Assembly: GCA_020060185.1 (NCBI GenBank)
Contig: JAGVAS010000076.1
Location: 1-34,823, forward strand
DNA: 34,823 nt
Direction: 5' to 3'
From: Desulfovibrio sp.
Lineage (GTDB): Bacteria > Bacillota > Dethiobacteria > DTU022 > UBA8154
Made by a program: the position numbers and the translations under genes. The notes under the pieces are model-generated. The model saw only the letters and a list, made by a program, of their open reading frames with translations. It searched no databases and was not told where the DNA came from. Shown in pieces: positions 17,369 through 26,151 of the stretch (position 1 is the first letter of the stretch; each line of letters begins with the position of its first letter).

Positions 17369-17905
17369 ATGCAGATTAATATCCGGGGTAGGAACATGGA
17401 GATCACTCCTGCGTTACAGGAATATGCTGAGAAAAGATTGAGCAAGCTGGAGAAATTTCTTAACCCTGAAGCAGATGTTCAGGCCACCTTGAGTGTGGTA
17501 AAGGAAAATCATATCGTAGATGTTATTATTTCCATTGGTGGTTTACTGTTAAGAGGAGAGGAAGCGACTCAGGACATGTATGCTTCCATTGATCTGGTTG
17601 TAGATAAACTTGAACGCCAGATGCACAAGTATAAAACGAAGATTAACCGCAAGCTGCGGCAAAAAGGACTTAAAGAATTAAATGAAAAATACATCAACAT
17701 GACGCTGGCGCGGGATGAAGAAGAACCCCGCGTCGTGAAAACTAAACGTTTTGTGATGAAACCTATGCCTCTGGAGGAAGCTGTTTTACAGTTAAACCTC
17801 CTTGGTCACGATTTTTTTGTTTTTACCAATGCGGAAACCGAGGAAATTAATGTTCTGTACAAGCGCAAGGATGGTAATTACGGGCTTATTGAACCCATGG
17901 AATAA
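17369..17905 (+). CDS. hpf: Long-form ribosome hibernation promoting factor (HPF/RaiA family)
   Basis: MQINIRGRNMEITPALQEYAEKRLSKLEKF; C-terminal RFVMKPMPLEEAVLQLNLLGHDFFVFTNAETEEINVLYKRKDGNYGLIEP. Confidence 0.96.
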   Translation: MQINIRGRNMEITPALQEYAEKRLSKLEKFLNPEADVQATLSVVKENHIVDVIISIGGLLLRGEEATQDMYASIDLVVDKLERQMHKYKTKINRKLRQKGLKELNEKYINMTLARDEEEPRVVKTKRFVMKPMPLEEAVLQLNLLGHDFFVFTNAETEEINVLYKRKDGNYGLIEPME

Positions 17906-18016: not shown

Positions 18017-19138
18017 ATGGAAAAGGCAGTAAGCGTGGTTATTTTTGAAGGAGGGGAACCTTCCAGTGAGATCGAACGAATGATGGTTGATGTACGCCAT
18101 GCCGTACTGCTGGATAATATAAATAAGATGAAGCAGGTGGCCCCGATAGGTCCTATTTACCTATTGACCAATTATACGCGCCTGGTTAAAGAAGCTGAAC
18201 TTTTAGGGGTTAAAGTTTTGGAAAACCGTCTTTCTGGAAAACAATTTCATTTTGGTGAAATATTTTCTAACCTTATCAATAAGGAGAAGCTGGAAAACGT
18301 TTTTTATATGGGCGGGGCAAGCATTCCCCTGGTAACAATCCAGGAACTAGAGGAGATCTGTTTTCTTTTGTTGAACTCTGAGGCTATAATATATGCTAAT
18401 AACGCTCAGTCTGCTGATATTATTGCCTTTACTCCCGGGAGTCTTATTAATAAAATAGAACCACCCTTGATCGATAATATCCTAGGCTTTTCCTTAAGGG
18501 AGGGGACAGGTGTTGAACAAAAACTTTTTCGCCATACTTCAGGGTTACTGTTTGATCTAGATACGCCGGCCGATTTACTTGTTCTGGCCGGTAGTCCCCT
18601 GGCGGGCCCGCGTACACGCCAGGTGATCAACAACTTGAACCTGGATCTCTCCCGCCTGGAAAGAGCCAAGGAAGTTCTTCGCGGGGATTATGAAGAGGCA
18701 GTGCTCCTGGGAAGGGTAGGGGCACCGGTAATAGCGCATATTAATCAAAATCTGAAAGTACGCTTGCGTATTTTTTCTGAAGAGCGGGGGATGAAAGCTC
18801 TGGGACGCGAAGAGCGGGGCGAAGCAATTTCGCTTATGGGTTTTTTCCTGGAGGAGGTTGGTGCCTGCAAATTTATAGAATACCTGGAAAAGGTAGCCCA
18901 GTGTGCTTTTTTGGATACGAGGGTTCTCATGGTGCATTTAAAGCAAAAGCTTTCGGCCGAAGAACGTTTTCTCTCTGACTTGGGCTGCTGGCAGGAGATC
19001 AGGAATCCCATTATAAGGGAATTTACCAGGGCAGCAGTAGAGTCTGAAATACCGGTTGTCTGTGGTGCACACTCCCTGGTTCTCGGCGGCTTATGGGCCC
19101 TGGTGGATGAAATAGGACCTACGCACAACCACTGGTAA
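18017..19138 (+). CDS. Putative GT-A-fold nucleotidyltransferase-like protein (CofC/MobA-like N-terminal part) with unassigned C-terminal domain
   Basis: VFYMGGASIPLVTIQELEEI and SGLLFDLDTPADLLVLA resemble MobA/CofC-type motifs; the canonical N-terminal GGxSxRMG is not evident. RBS GAAGGGAAGTG. Confidence 0.5.
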   Translation: MEKAVSVVIFEGGEPSSEIERMMVDVRHAVLLDNINKMKQVAPIGPIYLLTNYTRLVKEAELLGVKVLENRLSGKQFHFGEIFSNLINKEKLENVFYMGGASIPLVTIQELEEICFLLLNSEAIIYANNAQSADIIAFTPGSLINKIEPPLIDNILGFSLREGTGVEQKLFRHTSGLLFDLDTPADLLVLAGSPLAGPRTRQVINNLNLDLSRLERAKEVLRGDYEEAVLLGRVGAPVIAHINQNLKVRLRIFSEERGMKALGREERGEAISLMGFFLEEVGACKFIEYLEKVAQCAFLDTRVLMVHLKQKLSAEERFLSDLGCWQEIRNPIIREFTRAAVESEIPVVCGAHSLVLGGLWALVDEIGPTHNHW

Positions 19139-19193
19139 AAACATACTTGCTTGTTTTTGGATGAAGGCAAAATCCTGGAGAGGAGGTTTAGAT

Positions 19194-20501
19194 ATGAAAT
19201 GCTATGACCTGGCTGCTCTTACAGAAACGGAGTACAGGAATTTACTTCGCCGTTCGGAGACGGATATTTCGGAACATTTCCCCCTGGCCATGGAGGTAAT
19301 TAAACGTGTCCGGGAGGAAGGTGATAAAGCTATCCTGGATTATACCTTGAAGTTCGACGGGGTTTCCCTCGAGGAAAAAGACCTACAGGTTAAGGAAAAA
19401 GAAATTGAAGAAGCTTATGAGAAATTGGACAACCTGACCAGGGATACCCTGCAATATGCTGCAGCAAATATTAGAAAGTTTCACCAGCAGCAGCTTCCGG
19501 CAGAAATGTGGCTAAAGGAAATCGACGGCGGCTTGCTGGCTGGAGAAAAGGTAACTCCTATTTCAGACGTTTGTTTATATGTCCCCAGGGGCAAGGGAAG
19601 TTTCCCTTCTGTAATGCTGATGCTGGGAATACCTGCGGTCATAACAGGGGTTCCCCGGATTGTGGTCTGTACTCCTCCCGGAGCGAATGGCGAAGTAGAT
19701 ACGGTAACCTTGGCTGCAGCTCATATCGTTGGTATCAGGGAAATATACAGGATCGGGGGTATGCAGGCCATTGCCGCCGTTGCTTTTGGAACGGAAACCA
19801 TTCCCCGCTGCCGTAAAGTTATCGGGCCTGGAAATGCTTATGTCAATGCTGCCAAAAGGTTGCTGTACGGGGTACTGGATGTCGGCCTGCCAGCCGGTCC
19901 CAGCGAGGCCATCATTCTTGCCGACGAGCTTGCCGATCCGCATATTGTCTCCCTCGATTTACTCATTGAAGCGGAACATGGCCCCGATTCCGCCTCGTTA
20001 CTGGTTACACATTCCAGGGAACTGGCGAAAAAGGTCACCATGCTTTTACCTGAAATGATCAAAAAATTGCCTGAAGAAAAACGTCTTTTTGTGGAAAAAG
20101 TTTTTAATAATTATGGAGGTGTTGTTTTAACCGGAAAACTCGAAGAGTCGATTCGCTTTGTCAATGATTTTGCCCCTGAGCACCTGGAGATTTTAACCTC
20201 TGCTCCTTTTTCTTTACTTCCCCAGATTAAAAATGCGGGGGAAATCCTGCTGGGACCTTTTACTCCCGTTACTCTCTGTAATTTTTTACTGGGTCCCAAC
20301 GCTATCCTGCCTACAGGATCCTTTGCCAAGACTTATTCCGGTGTTTCGGTCCATGATTTTTTAAAACGTTCTTCTTTTGGTTATGTTACACCGGAAGGCT
20401 TTGCCAGGGTTAAGGAAGCAGCAATACGTTTTGCGGAGGTTGAGGGCTTTTGGGCTCATGCCATGGCGGTCAGGGAGAGGGGTATTAACGAGAAGTACTG
20501 A
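19194..20501 (+). CDS. Histidinol dehydrogenase homologue (HisD-like) with altered metal and substrate positions
   Basis: ORF 19161..20501; AGGAGG RBS before ATG 19194; VIGPGNAYVNAAKRLLYG, LPAGPSEAIILADE, FAPEHLEI, LPTGSFAKTYSGVSVHDFLKR; but LLIEAEH and TLCNFLLGPNAILPT. Confidence 0.85.
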   Translation: MKCYDLAALTETEYRNLLRRSETDISEHFPLAMEVIKRVREEGDKAILDYTLKFDGVSLEEKDLQVKEKEIEEAYEKLDNLTRDTLQYAAANIRKFHQQQLPAEMWLKEIDGGLLAGEKVTPISDVCLYVPRGKGSFPSVMLMLGIPAVITGVPRIVVCTPPGANGEVDTVTLAAAHIVGIREIYRIGGMQAIAAVAFGTETIPRCRKVIGPGNAYVNAAKRLLYGVLDVGLPAGPSEAIILADELADPHIVSLDLLIEAEHGPDSASLLVTHSRELAKKVTMLLPEMIKKLPEEKRLFVEKVFNNYGGVVLTGKLEESIRFVNDFAPEHLEILTSAPFSLLPQIKNAGEILLGPFTPVTLCNFLLGPNAILPTGSFAKTYSGVSVHDFLKRSSFGYVTPEGFARVKEAAIRFAEVEGFWAHAMAVRERGINEKY

Positions 20502-20506
20502 GCCGC

Positions 20507-20542
20507 CACCACCCTGCGGGTCACAACAATGGATGAAAATGA
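20507..20542 (+). repeat. Dispersed repeat A, copy 2
   Basis: CACCACCCTGCGGGTCACAACAATGGATGAAAATGA; 24-nt perfect match to the complement of 9592..9615 and 29/36 match to 30165..30200. Confidence 0.8.
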
Positions 20543-20574
20543 CCTTTTTAAGAAACCGTATTATGTCCCGCAAA

Positions 20575-20822
20575 GGTGGCGCAAGGTTGTGGCTCGCGAC
20601 TTGTGCAGCGAAGTAAAAAGTTCACGGTGAAGCGAGGGTTGGAGACGACCCAGCTGACAGGATGTCAGCTGCCGGCAGACGACCATGGATGGGAGTTCTG
20701 CCGGGGAGGTCATTATCTGCGGTATGGGGACACACCTCTTGCAGAGGAATGTCCCCGATGCCCGAGTTGAACCGTAGAGCTTTCTGAGCGGAACTCGGAG
20801 CGAGCACCAACCTTCGCCACCC
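20575..20822. repeat. ~250-bp multi-hairpin element with imperfect terminal inverted repeats (MITE-like or structured RNA)
   Basis: Left GGTGGCGCAAGGTTGTGGCTCGC versus complement of right end GGTGGCGAAGGTTGGTGCTCGC; internal hairpins CAGCTGACA/TGTCAGCTG, CCGGCAGA/TCTGCCGG, GGGGACA..TGTCCCC, CCGAGTT/AACTCGG. Confidence 0.7.
20726..20756. repeat. Palindromic repeat C, copy 2
   Basis: GGGGACACACCTCTTGCAGAGGAATGTCCCC, 30/31 identical to 8989..9019. Confidence 0.85.
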
Positions 20823-20884
20823 CATTTAATACCGGAAAGGAGGTATCCGGGGAAAGGCTTTTTAAGGCTTTTTACCGGGAAAAT

Positions 20885-21514
20885 GTGCAGGTAATATCTG
20901 AAAGGAAAACTGCAGAATCGGAAATTGTCGTTAAACTGGATTTTGGCCCCCGCTATGCCAACCCTAAAAAAGGATTGAAAACAACAATGCCCTTTTTGAA
21001 TCACATGCTTGAGCATGTAATCTGGCGGGGGGAGTTTAACCTGGAAGTAAGTGTGGAATTAAAGGATTTTTACCTCTCTCATGTTGTTTGTGAGGATATC
21101 GGTATAACCATGGGAAAGGCTGTTAATGAATATGTGAAGCTAAGGCTTGACGAAGGCCTGGCAGGTTATGGTTTTGCCCTGGCCACCATTGATGAGGCTT
21201 TGGCCCAGGCGGTTATTAGTTTTGAAAACAGGGCCTATCTCGATTTTTCCCATCCCGGAGTAATAATTCCAGCGCAAACCGAGAATACAAATTCAGAGGA
21301 CCTTAAGACCTTTTTTGAAGGGTTTGTCCAGGGAGCTTCCTGTACCTTGCACCTGAGTGTTTTAAAGGGAGTGAACGGTCACCATATTTGGGAAGCAGTA
21401 TTTCGCTCCTTTGGAGAGACTCTTTTCCGGGCATTGGCGCTAAGGGAATGGAGAAAGGGAATTACTTCGGGGGTTGCGGGGCCTGTACAGGTTAATATTT
21501 TTTCCAACAAGTAA
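20885..21514 (+). CDS. Imidazoleglycerol-phosphate dehydratase homologue (HisB-like), divergent active site
   Basis: PFLNHMLEH, SHVVCEDIGITMGKAV, IDEALAQA, CTLHL, GHHIWEAVFRSFGETLFRAL match IGPD blocks; several canonical residues replaced. GTG start is uncertain. Confidence 0.8.
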   Translation: MQVISERKTAESEIVVKLDFGPRYANPKKGLKTTMPFLNHMLEHVIWRGEFNLEVSVELKDFYLSHVVCEDIGITMGKAVNEYVKLRLDEGLAGYGFALATIDEALAQAVISFENRAYLDFSHPGVIIPAQTENTNSEDLKTFFEGFVQGASCTLHLSVLKGVNGHHIWEAVFRSFGETLFRALALREWRKGITSGVAGPVQVNIFSNK

Positions 21515-21553
21515 AGTTTAAAATTGATCTTTTGGCATACGGAGGAAATAATT

Positions 21554-22762
21554 GTGCTGGGAAAAGAAGGCAACCGGGGAAAAATTATTTTTGACATGGA
21601 TGGCGTTATAACAGGGGAAGAGTGCTACTGGAATACCGCTTCCCTGGTTGTATGGGAGCTGCTGTACAGCAAGCGCTACCTTGGGCTGGAACCTGAAGCC
21701 AACCTTCCGGAATTTAAGACAGATGTAACTCCCGGGGAGATCGCCTCCATCAGGAAGGTTGTTTTTCAGGAAGAGAAGGTTATTACGTTTATTAAAAAAC
21801 GTGCCGTAAATTCCAACTGGGACCTGGCCTTTTTAACTTTTGGCTACCAGCTAATGTTGTTATTAAAAGCACTTAGCGGAAAAGGACTTGAAAACACAGC
21901 ATGGGTAAAAGGGAAAAAGAAGGGTATTGACCTGGAGCATCTCCGCACCTTTTCCAGACTTTTAATGTCATTACATGGAGCATGGAGCCCGTCTTTTGAT
22001 GCTATTTTGGGCAATTGGGCAGGTGAAGCCCGGGGGATGGAGTTGATGCAGGAGTTGTCCGCCCAGTTGCCTGTCAGGTACTGGGAACTGGGGGAAACTA
22101 CTTTTAATTCCTTTTCTCCGTTATGGAAAGGGGTCCAGGAGATTTTTCAGGAATGGTACTTCGGAGAAGAGAAATACAGGAAATTTTACCACAGGGAGCC
22201 GGCAGTTCCTGGCAAAAGAGGGCTTATTTCCGATGAGAAGCCGGTATTGCCGGTGGAAAAAATTAAAGCTACCCTGGAAAAACTGGTAAAAAAAGGCTGG
22301 ATGCTGGGGATAGCAACGGGGAGGCCTTTAAACGAGCTTTACTTGCCCCTTGAGTCCATGGGAATCTGGGGATTGTTTGACCGCGGTTCGATAGCAACTT
22401 ATGATGATGTTCAAAAAGCGGAGCAATCTTTAAAAGCAGAAGGCCAAAAAATTTCCCTGGGTAAACCCCACCCTTTTTCTTTTTTAAAAGCCTACTGGGG
22501 AGAAGGGTTTAAAGAAAAGGAGCTTGTTTTTTCCACAGTTTTGAGACCGCAACCGGGTAAGTGCTGGATAGTCGGGGATTCCCTGGCAGATTTAATGGCT
22601 GCCAGGGAAATGGGGGCTTTTTTTATTGGTGTTTTATCCGGTCACAGCGGTGCTGACAGCAAGATTCTTTTTCATAAGGAAGGCGCCAGGCTTGTGCTGC
22701 CGGATATTACCTATATCCCGCACTATTTAGCTGAAATTAATGGCCCTGCCTCTAGGCAATAA
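21554..22762 (+). CDS. HAD-superfamily hydrolase with large insertion between motifs I and II
   Basis: GGAGG RBS before GTG 21554; FDMDGVITGEE (I), GIATGRP (II), LGKPHPFSFL (III), WIVGDSLADLMAARE (IV). Confidence 0.8.
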   Translation: MLGKEGNRGKIIFDMDGVITGEECYWNTASLVVWELLYSKRYLGLEPEANLPEFKTDVTPGEIASIRKVVFQEEKVITFIKKRAVNSNWDLAFLTFGYQLMLLLKALSGKGLENTAWVKGKKKGIDLEHLRTFSRLLMSLHGAWSPSFDAILGNWAGEARGMELMQELSAQLPVRYWELGETTFNSFSPLWKGVQEIFQEWYFGEEKYRKFYHREPAVPGKRGLISDEKPVLPVEKIKATLEKLVKKGWMLGIATGRPLNELYLPLESMGIWGLFDRGSIATYDDVQKAEQSLKAEGQKISLGKPHPFSFLKAYWGEGFKEKELVFSTVLRPQPGKCWIVGDSLADLMAAREMGAFFIGVLSGHSGADSKILFHKEGARLVLPDITYIPHYLAEINGPASRQ

Positions 22763-22797: not shown

Positions 22798-23283
22798 TTA
22801 AGTCTTGGGTTTTAGGCGCAGGGAAGCTATTAATAATACTATACCGAAAATAAGAATCAGGTAATTAACAAGCTGCGTTCTCTCCAGGCCCTGTAACAGC
22901 GCCGGTCCCACGGAGCTGGCTAAACCTGCTGACAAATAATCTGGCAAAATGGCCAGGGTTATTTGGACAAGAATAAAGGAAATTATGGCAAGAATAGATG
23001 CAGGCAGGAAAATTTGGAAGTTCCCGTAGAGATAATACAGGGCTATAAGGCAAAACCCTATGCCGGAGAGGGAAACCCAAAAAATGTTTCGGACAATGTT
23101 AGCTTCGATATTGGCCAGGAGTATGGCTATTTCCGGTGGATGTCCCGTTGCTCCGGAAATAATGGCACTCAGGCTTTCTGAAGTTACGACGCCAACCAGA
23201 AAAGTAGTGATAACGGTTGTTATCAGTGCAGCAGCAAAGGCAACCGCTAAAAGAATCTTTAAAAAAAGTTTGGTTTTTTGCAT
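22798..23283 (-). CDS. Small integral membrane protein of unknown function (about 4 TM)
   Basis: ORF 22798..23325; ATG 23283 preceded by GGAAAGGTGG; several hydrophobic segments. Confidence 0.6.
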   Translation of the reverse strand: MQKTKLFLKILLAVAFAAALITTVITTFLVGVVTSESLSAIISGATGHPPEIAILLANIEANIVRNIFWVSLSGIGFCLIALYYLYGNFQIFLPASILAIISFILVQITLAILPDYLSAGLASSVGPALLQGLERTQLVNYLILIFGIVLLIASLRLKPKT

Positions 23284-23487
23284 AGCATTGCCACCTTTCC
23301 CTAAACCATGATAATAATTGAACATTAAGTTCTTTTTTAATGCTGAACTTTCCTGCTATGAGAAAAAAATATCTTGCTGCCCTGCAGGGAACTGGAGCGA
23401 CTTGTAATTTGCCTGGGTTTCTAGTAGAATGTTTTTGCACGAATTTCTGTTCTAAATTATAGGTGTTTTATAAACGGAGGAATTTTT

Positions 23488-26151
23488 ATGGGTCTTTTAA
23501 CCAAAATATTTGGCGATCCCCATGTAAGGGAAGTAAAAAAGCTCTGGCGTTATGTTGAAGAGGTCAATTCTTATGAAGAGCGCATGAGGGAGCTCAAAGA
23601 AAGCCAGTTTCCGGAGTATACGGCTATTTTAAAAGAAAAGCTTGCGCAAGGGGAAACCCTTGATGATATCTTACCCGAAGCTTTTGCCCTGGCACGTGAA
23701 GCTGCCCGGCGAGTTCTGGGCATGAGGCCTTTTGATGTCCAGGTCCTGGGAGGCATTGTTTTGCACCAGGGCCGTATTGCGGAAATGAAAACCGGTGAAG
23801 GAAAAACCCTGGTGGCGACCATGCCCGCTTACCTTAACGCCCTGTGTGGTAAGGGGGTTCATATCGTTACCGTTAACGATTACCTGGCCAGGCGCGACAG
23901 GGATTGGATGGGTCCTGTTTATGAACTTCTTGGCTTAAGGGTGGGGACTATTGTTCACGGGCTAAATCCCCAGCAGCGCAGGGAGGCCTACAATGCCGAT
24001 ATAACCTACGGTACAAACAATGAGTTTGGTTTTGATTACCTTCGGGATAACATGGTCATTTACAAGGAGCATCTGGTCCAGCGTTCCCATTACTATGCCA
24101 TTGTGGACGAAGTGGACAGCATCCTGGTAGATGAAGCGAGGACACCATTAATCATTTCTGGCGCTGCAGAAAAGGCTACCGAGCTGTATGAAAAATTTGC
24201 CGTTTTTGTGCCCCGCTTAGAAAGGGACGCTGATTACGAAGTAGATGAAAAAGCACATAATGTGGACATTACGGAAAAAGGTTTTGAAAAGGTAGCCAGG
24301 TTTGTAGAGCATTCCCTGGGTTTGAAAAACCTGGAACAATCGGAGCAGCGGACCGAAATAGAGAACTATGTTAGACAGGCCTTAAAAGCACATGTCCTGA
24401 TGAAGAGGGACAGGGATTATGTTGTTAAAGACGGGGAAGTTATCATTGTGGACGAATTTACCGGGCGGCTTATGTTCGGCCGTCGCTACAGCGATGGTTT
24501 GCACCAGGCCATCGAAGCCAAAGAAAAGGTGAAAGTGGCCCGGGAAAGCCGAACCCTGGCCTCCATAACCTTTCAGAATTACTTTCGTATGTATGACAAG
24601 CTGTCCGGTATGACAGGTACCGCCGCTACCGAGGAAGAGGAGTTCCGGAAAATTTATGGCATGGATGTTGTGGTCATACCTACTAATGAACCCATGATCA
24701 GGAAGGATCTTTCCGATTTGGTTTACCGTTCCGAGAAGGCCAAGTTTAACGCTGTGGTGGAGGAGATCACGATGCGGCATCGGAACGGGCAGCCGGTTCT
24801 GGTAGGGACTATTTCCATTGAAAAATCTGAAGAATTAAGCCGGATGCTTTCCAAAAGGGGCGTATACCATCATGTTCTTAACGCCAAATATCATGAAAAG
24901 GAAGCGGAAATAATCGCTCAGGCGGGCCAAAAGGGAGCGGTTACCATTGCTACCAATATGGCCGGACGCGGCACTGACATTGTTTTGGGCGGCAATTTTG
25001 AGCCGCAAGTAAAAGCCGTCCTGGTAGAAGATAATTTGACTAGGGAACAAAAAGAGGCAAAAGTACAACAAATCCGTGGCCTTTGGAAGAGCCGTCACGA
25101 CGAAGTAGTACAGCTTGGAGGCCTGCATATCATTGGTACTGAAAGGCATGAATCCCGGCGCATAGATAACCAGCTCAGGGGGCGTGCCGGCCGGCAGGGG
25201 GATCCCGGGTCTTCTGTTTTTTATGTTTCCCTGGAAGATGACCTCATGCGGCTTTTTGGTTCGGACAATGTGAGATCAATCATGGAGAGGCTGGGTATGG
25301 AAGAGGATGTTCCCATAGAACATCCTATCATCAGCAGGGCTATAGAAAATGCCCAGAAAAAGGTAGAAAGTCGCAACTTCGAAATACGCAAGCACATCCT
25401 GGAGTATGACGATGTCCTTAACCAGCAGAGGGAAGTCATCTATAAGCAGCGCCGCCAGGTTCTGGAGGGTGAGAACTTGCGGGACAATATCATGCAGATG
25501 ATCTCTGATGTTGTAGAGCAGGCCCTTTCTCTCTATGCCGATGAGAAGCTGCACGAAGAAGAATGGGATTTGCACGGGCTCTTAAGTTATGCGGAAAGAT
25601 TATTTCTTCCAGGAGGGCATTTCAGCATCGAGGAGTTAAAGGCCCTTTCCCGGGAGGAAATAAGGGAGAGGCTGTTTGAGGCTGCCGGTAATTTTTATGA
25701 CGAGCGGGAAAGAGAAATCGGCTCCGAGGTTATGCGGGAACTGGAGCGAGTTGTCCTTTTGCGTACCGTCGACAGCAAGTGGATGGACCATATTGACGCC
25801 ATGCACGAACTTCGCCAGGGAGTATATCTGCGGGCTTTTGGGCAGCAGGACCCCCTGATCGAGTATAAATATGAAGCTTACGAAATGTTTCAGGAGATGA
25901 TTCGCTCTATCCAGGAAGATGTGGTTCGCCTCCTGTTCCATCTTAAAGTTAACCAGGCCCCGGAGCGGCAGCGTGTGGCGGCACCGGTGGTAACATTAAA
26001 AACGGAAGGTAAAGGGGCCATGGAAGAAGCCAGGAACACCGGGAGCACTTCTCCCGGTAAGCGCAGTCCTGTAACTGTTGACAAAGTGGGCAGAAATGAG
26101 CCCTGCCCCTGCGGAAGCGGTAAAAAATATAAAAAGTGCTGCGGAGCCTAG
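23488..26151 (+). CDS. secA: Preprotein translocase ATPase SecA
   Basis: [51 protein letters not shown]-terminal [17 protein letters not shown]. Confidence 0.98.

Follow-up and report, generated by a model that had tools for sequence, protein, structure and literature searches.

The window analyzed here, a contig of 34,823 nucleotides (JAGVAS010000076.1, assembly GCA_020060185.1), carries between hpf and secA a HisD-like dehydrogenase (D'), a HisB-like dehydratase (B') and a hydrolase of the HAD superfamily (HAD). We consider it highly probable, from gene content and operon position, that these three proteins stand in for HisD, HisB and the PHP histidinol-phosphate phosphatase and finish histidine synthesis from imidazoleglycerol phosphate (IGP), a confidence that attaches to the histidine role and not to the order of the reactions. 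The trio is most likely a so far unrecognized replacement for the last histidine steps in many Bacillota that lack the textbook enzymes. As the preliminary description of this locus had supposed, D' and B' are not ordinary HisD and HisB proteins: both form clades of their own with altered substrate and metal contacts, B' scores under the HisB equivalog cut-offs, and the two travel as a cassette.

PF00815 and PF00475 were each matched once in the genome, in D' and B', and no second, canonical hisD or hisB was found there, although the genome does have hisG, hisF, hisI and part of hisA. Within the window itself no his gene was detected besides D' and B', as first described. The same pattern extends across the window's family (Dethiobacter relatives), of which 23 genomes were sampled, the sample for the order comprising 71. 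D' was present in 20 of the 23 and B' in 19 of those 20, the remaining genome (G060) being fragmentary, with a D' that runs to the contig end. Canonical hisB was absent from the D' carriers of the family except G070, and every genome of the family but two incomplete ones gave strong HisA and HisF matches. Full-length HisD matches scored about 465-500 bits within the family versus 531-571 bits elsewhere in the order, and HisB matches 117-131 bits versus about 190-212 bits for the full-length canonical HisB of other families. Loss of canonical hisD and hisB in an assembly gap was considered, since both hisG and hisF are close to contig ends here; the idea was dropped, as the same absence is seen in the relatives and in 45 distant genomes.

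Comparison with the sister families, whose canonical his operon reads hisD-B-A-F-IE-HolPase, places the difference at the end of the pathway. The steps up to IGP are assigned to the same enzymes, whereas the his operons of carriers are without hisD, hisB and the PHP phosphatase, with D', B' and usually HAD present instead. In most of the sister-family operons fetched the PHP phosphatase lies 3' of hisI; no PHP phosphatase follows hisI in the annotated loci of the window's family, where ogt is found instead. Matches to TIGR01856 over the cut-off do occur in 7 of the 23 family genomes and probably represent a second paralogue, because some other genomes have another copy besides the one in the operon.

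This arrangement is not confined to one family. A single scan with the B' alignment gave 136 relatives, of which 80 were kept, mostly from Clostridia with some from Bacilli; these contain B' by construction, and most of the carriers are metagenome-assembled genomes. Outside the window's family D' adjoins B' in 61 of 63 loci and HAD is adjacent in 50. The genome-wide search for canonical HisD covered the order, and that for HisB also 45 genomes outside the family, all of which had the variant HisB only; HisA and HisF were found in 42 of these 45. The carrier his operons fetched read hisZ-G-H-A-F-IE, without hisD, hisB or a PHP phosphatase (L195-L198, L204-L207). In two lineages the pair lies within the his operon itself. 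The operon of Hydrogenibacillus schlegelii MA48 reads hisZ-G-A-F-IE-D'-B', with D' starting 4 nt inside the 3' end of hisIE, and UBA3933 shows the same order, with the pair after hisIE. The PRA-CH and PRA-PH domains of hisIE were confirmed in MA48, and a HisE domain was seen in both lineages (L170 and L136). MA48, described as a facultative chemolithoautotroph with a draft genome about 97% complete (PMC5255923), should make its own histidine. In a partial read of H. schlegelii (0.44 Mb) the sole further find was a hisH-hisF pair; the portion read is too small to exclude a canonical HisD. This separate pair (L192) accompanies a his operon that has hisF and is without hisH. The growth of D. alkaliphilus AHT1 without yeast extract (PMC10376724) was not used here, the sequenced carrier being another genome (BL5_bin.7).

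The preliminary description had suggested a dedicated pathway acting on a substrate other than histidinol. On such a view the pathway would be unrelated to histidine, and carriers would obtain their histidine otherwise. The altered active sites would suit such a pathway, as would the position of the cassette in the window's family, where it lies apart from the his genes. However, D' and B' are the sole HisD and HisB homologues of this genome, the carriers keep IGP-making operons without hisB and hisD, no carrier searched outside the family has a canonical HisB, and D' and B' sit within his operons in two lineages, one of them a chemolithoautotroph. We therefore regard the proposal as very improbable. 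Some observations nevertheless weigh against the histidine role. One member of the same family, G058, is 99% complete and has hisH-A-F-I and hisC with no match to hisD, hisB or the neighboring nucleotidyltransferase-like gene (NT), so that HisA and HisF occur there without D' and B'; this genome also speaks for the non-histidine proposal. G070 (8% contamination) has D' and B' together with a contig bearing a canonical hisZ-G-D-B-A-F operon, and 13 of the 63 outside loci, both his-operon cases included, have no adjacent HAD. The canonical contig of G070 (L080, G070:C10) adjoins IS21 genes and reflects either contamination or a recent gain.

The substitutions that the preliminary description noted in B' proved to be real and conserved across 82 variant loci. 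Following the residue list of PMC4509728, E21, H47, H73, E77, R121, H169, H170 and E173 are retained in all 82 and H145 in 74 (lost in 8), whereas H55>R, H74>V/L/I, R99>G, K177>R and S199>G occur in all 82 and K201>A in 81. In the window's protein these changes are H55>R48, H74>V67, R99>G94, K177>R174, S199>G196 and K201>A198, with the catalytic E11 and E170 retained. The di-manganese ligand set (H47, H74, H169, E173; H73, E77, H145, H170) is thereby incomplete, the window's B' losing H74 and keeping the other seven, and among the phosphate residues R99, R121, K177, S199, K201 and H55 only R121 is retained. The loss of R99, S199 and K201 removes three of seven phosphate contacts and, like that of the Mn ligand H74, holds at 81-82 of the 82 loci. 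In the sister families, 15 of 15 canonical HisB proteins carry H55, H74, R99, K177 and K201; the S199 column is gapped in their alignment, and S199 was paired by eye. B' belongs to the same fold family as HisB (PF00475, E 4.5e-35; EC 4.2.1.19), with which it shares the catalytic E21/E173, most Mn ligands and a genomic tie to his genes, but it falls under every NCBIfam HisB equivalog cut-off (best 113 bits versus cut-offs of 189-443) and forms a clade apart from canonical HisB with full support. Its dN/dS between genus members is 0.07-0.11, and this low value, together with the retained catalytic residues, was counted in favor of a functional histidine role.

The substitutions in D' are likewise real and fixed. 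Positions are given here in E. coli HisD numbering. Every variant locus covering them has Q259>E, D360>N, H367>A and E356>V/I/M (V in the window), and most have Y361>F (residues read via PMC5585171). E326, H327, H262, E414 and H419 are retained, the catalytic pair E326/H327 in every locus covering it. The zinc ligand set Q259, H262, D360 and H419 consequently reads E, H, N, H in D', whereas Q259, D360 and H367 are invariant in the canonical HisD set; the single canonical-looking row in the D' alignment comes from the his operon of G070. Although D' is a full-length homologue of HisD (PF00815; EC 1.1.1.23) and scores well above the NCBIfam equivalog cut-off for TIGR00069 (463.5 versus 243.8), these zinc-ligand and pocket changes and a clade of its own (support 100/99) set it apart. 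D' and B' distances correlate across 74 loci (r = 0.74), a value to which shared descent alone contributes. Family-level annotation names the two genes hisD and hisB and so hides the difference.

How the trio would complete the pathway is a separate matter, on which altered rather than textbook intermediates are favored, given the lost phosphate contacts of B', the zinc-site changes of D' and the usual adjacency of HAD. In HisD the zinc surroundings are where the histidinol amine binds. The single most likely scheme, which we put forward tentatively, bypasses histidinol phosphate and histidinol altogether. In this model the organism still makes IGP with HisG, HisI, HisA, HisH and HisF; HAD would then take the phosphate off IGP to give imidazole glycerol, D' would oxidize the primary alcohol of this product to imidazole glycerate, dehydration of this vicinal-diol acid by B' would give imidazolepyruvate, from which an aminotransferase would form histidine. 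Three consecutive steps would account for the joint travel of HAD, D' and B'. The idea of altered substrates is also supported by members of the HisD fold that act on a vicinal diol, the sulfopropanediol 3-dehydrogenases (HpsN type). These are PF00815 homologues whose substrate, to judge from the molecule name in the PDB, is a vicinal diol and not an amino alcohol; the HisD structures listed are, however, closer to D' than they are, and D' has no sulfonate context around it. A second HisD paralogue (L109, G064:C110) was tried as an HpsN stand-in and set aside, its best PDB matches being HisD, and no inference was drawn from it. It has a Cys at zinc ligand D360 and is neither D' nor clearly HpsN.

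A somewhat less probable reading, still to be taken seriously, keeps the textbook intermediates. Here B' and D' would be divergent forms of IGP dehydratase and histidinol dehydrogenase, HAD would be a displaced histidinol-phosphate phosphatase, and the substitutions would be tolerated or compensated. All of the genomic evidence for a histidine role holds for it too. In B' the retained Arg116 and the gained Arg48 and Arg174 could still bind phosphate, which weighs against altered intermediates, as does the hisC-type aminotransferase (HisC equivalog) that persists in the family. HAD-type histidinol-phosphate phosphatases are, moreover, known from elsewhere (PMC5516325). Such a reading leaves near-invariant changes striking canonical invariants (R99, K201 and H74 of HisB; Q259, D360 and H367 of HisD), and it offers no reason why D' and B', whose reactions would lie two other steps apart, should be replaced jointly and sit next to each other. 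A route in which dephosphorylation comes first and the chemistry is textbook-like thereafter would have HAD form imidazole glycerol, B' convert it to imidazole acetol, an aminotransferase give histidinol, and D' oxidize histidinol. This would account for the lost phosphate contacts of B', the presence of HAD and the persistence of hisC, but with D' still acting on histidinol it leaves the zinc and pocket changes unexplained, and we judge it improbable. The presence of hisC is uninformative in telling these routes apart, as those family loci that were read have the gene outside both types of operon, his and aro.

The HAD protein, which retains the DxD motif across the family, has a large cap and is presumed to be a phosphatase. 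Its model (pLDDT 87.1) finds its best PDB match in 1qyi (Q8NW41; 31% identity, E 4.8e-26), a structural-genomics entry without an assigned function, so that the match does not identify the substrate. A PF05683 gene (class I fumarase C-terminal type) was seen nearby in 26 of the 63 outside loci, usually just after HAD or B' (for example L130:9726-10277).

The route to histidine is treated as close to universal, with chemistry that does not vary. We found no published description of a replacement by D', B' and HAD in the open-licence literature. If correct, the trio would close gaps in predicted amino-acid pathways that have had no explanation, and predicted histidine auxotrophies of gut and environmental bacteria would be corrected; were the intermediates also to differ, an amino acid would be shown to have a second biosynthetic route. 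In GapMind, HisN is the commonest low-confidence step (PMC7311316).

The four co-directional reading frames reported between hpf and secA are present (Table 1), and the block had been described as a likely insertion that could form a four-gene pathway with nucleotide activation. The insertion is borne out for D', B' and HAD, which occupy the gap between NT and secA only in the window's family. It fails for NT, which is a resident of the locus: in the other families of the order, all 17 loci fetched read hpf-NT-secA-prfB (one is cut by the contig end after NT), with no further gene detected in the NT-secA gap. Moreover, NT is absent from all 63 D'-B' loci outside the window's family. Co-occurrence of the four gene families across lineages is thus borne out for D' with B' and mostly for HAD, and fails for NT. 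That NT supplies an activation step to the cassette is hardly credible on this synteny, despite its adjacency on the same strand and the lack of NT in just those three family members that have no D', and we ruled it out as a cassette member. NT, present in 61 of the 71 genomes of the order, represents a conserved family without a Pfam model that holds a fixed hpf-secA position across the order. Its AlphaFold model (pLDDT 91.6) matches MM2497 (2i5e) and CofC/FbiD Rv2983 (6bwg) over part of its length, and a GT-A nucleotidyltransferase-like fold near these proteins is predicted.

Table 1. Features of the hpf-secA interval of the window
Feature	Position	Strand	Remarks
hpf (S30AE)	17369..17905	+	left flank; Pfam PF02482 and PF16321
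NT, nucleotidyltransferase-like	18017..19138	+	between hpf and secA; no Pfam/NCBIfam family
D', HisD-like dehydrogenase	19161..20501	+	PF00815, 490 bits; start probably 19194
Structured intergenic stretch	20500..20884	+	between D' and B'; probable repeat element
B', HisB-like dehydratase	20885..21514	+	GTG start; PF00475, 121 bits
HAD-superfamily hydrolase, large cap, presumed phosphatase	21524..22762	+	PF13419/PF00702; start probably 21554
175-aa ORF, no known family	22798..23325	-	between HAD and secA; not counted in the cassette
secA	23488..26151	+	right flank; long ORF; hpf...secA-prfB order conserved

For D' and HAD the alternative starts in Table 1 probably fit better, judging from ribosome-binding-site-like sequence. 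The 175-aa minus-strand reading frame gave no match in Pfam or NCBIfam and has homologues at the same place in four relatives (L077, L110, L087, L092). The intergenic stretch between D' and B' has a strong predicted RNA structure (z = -6.74), and comparison with Rfam gave no family. Partial copies occur at L039 in the same genome and at L079 and L077 within the genus, and the stretch is probably a dispersed repeat.

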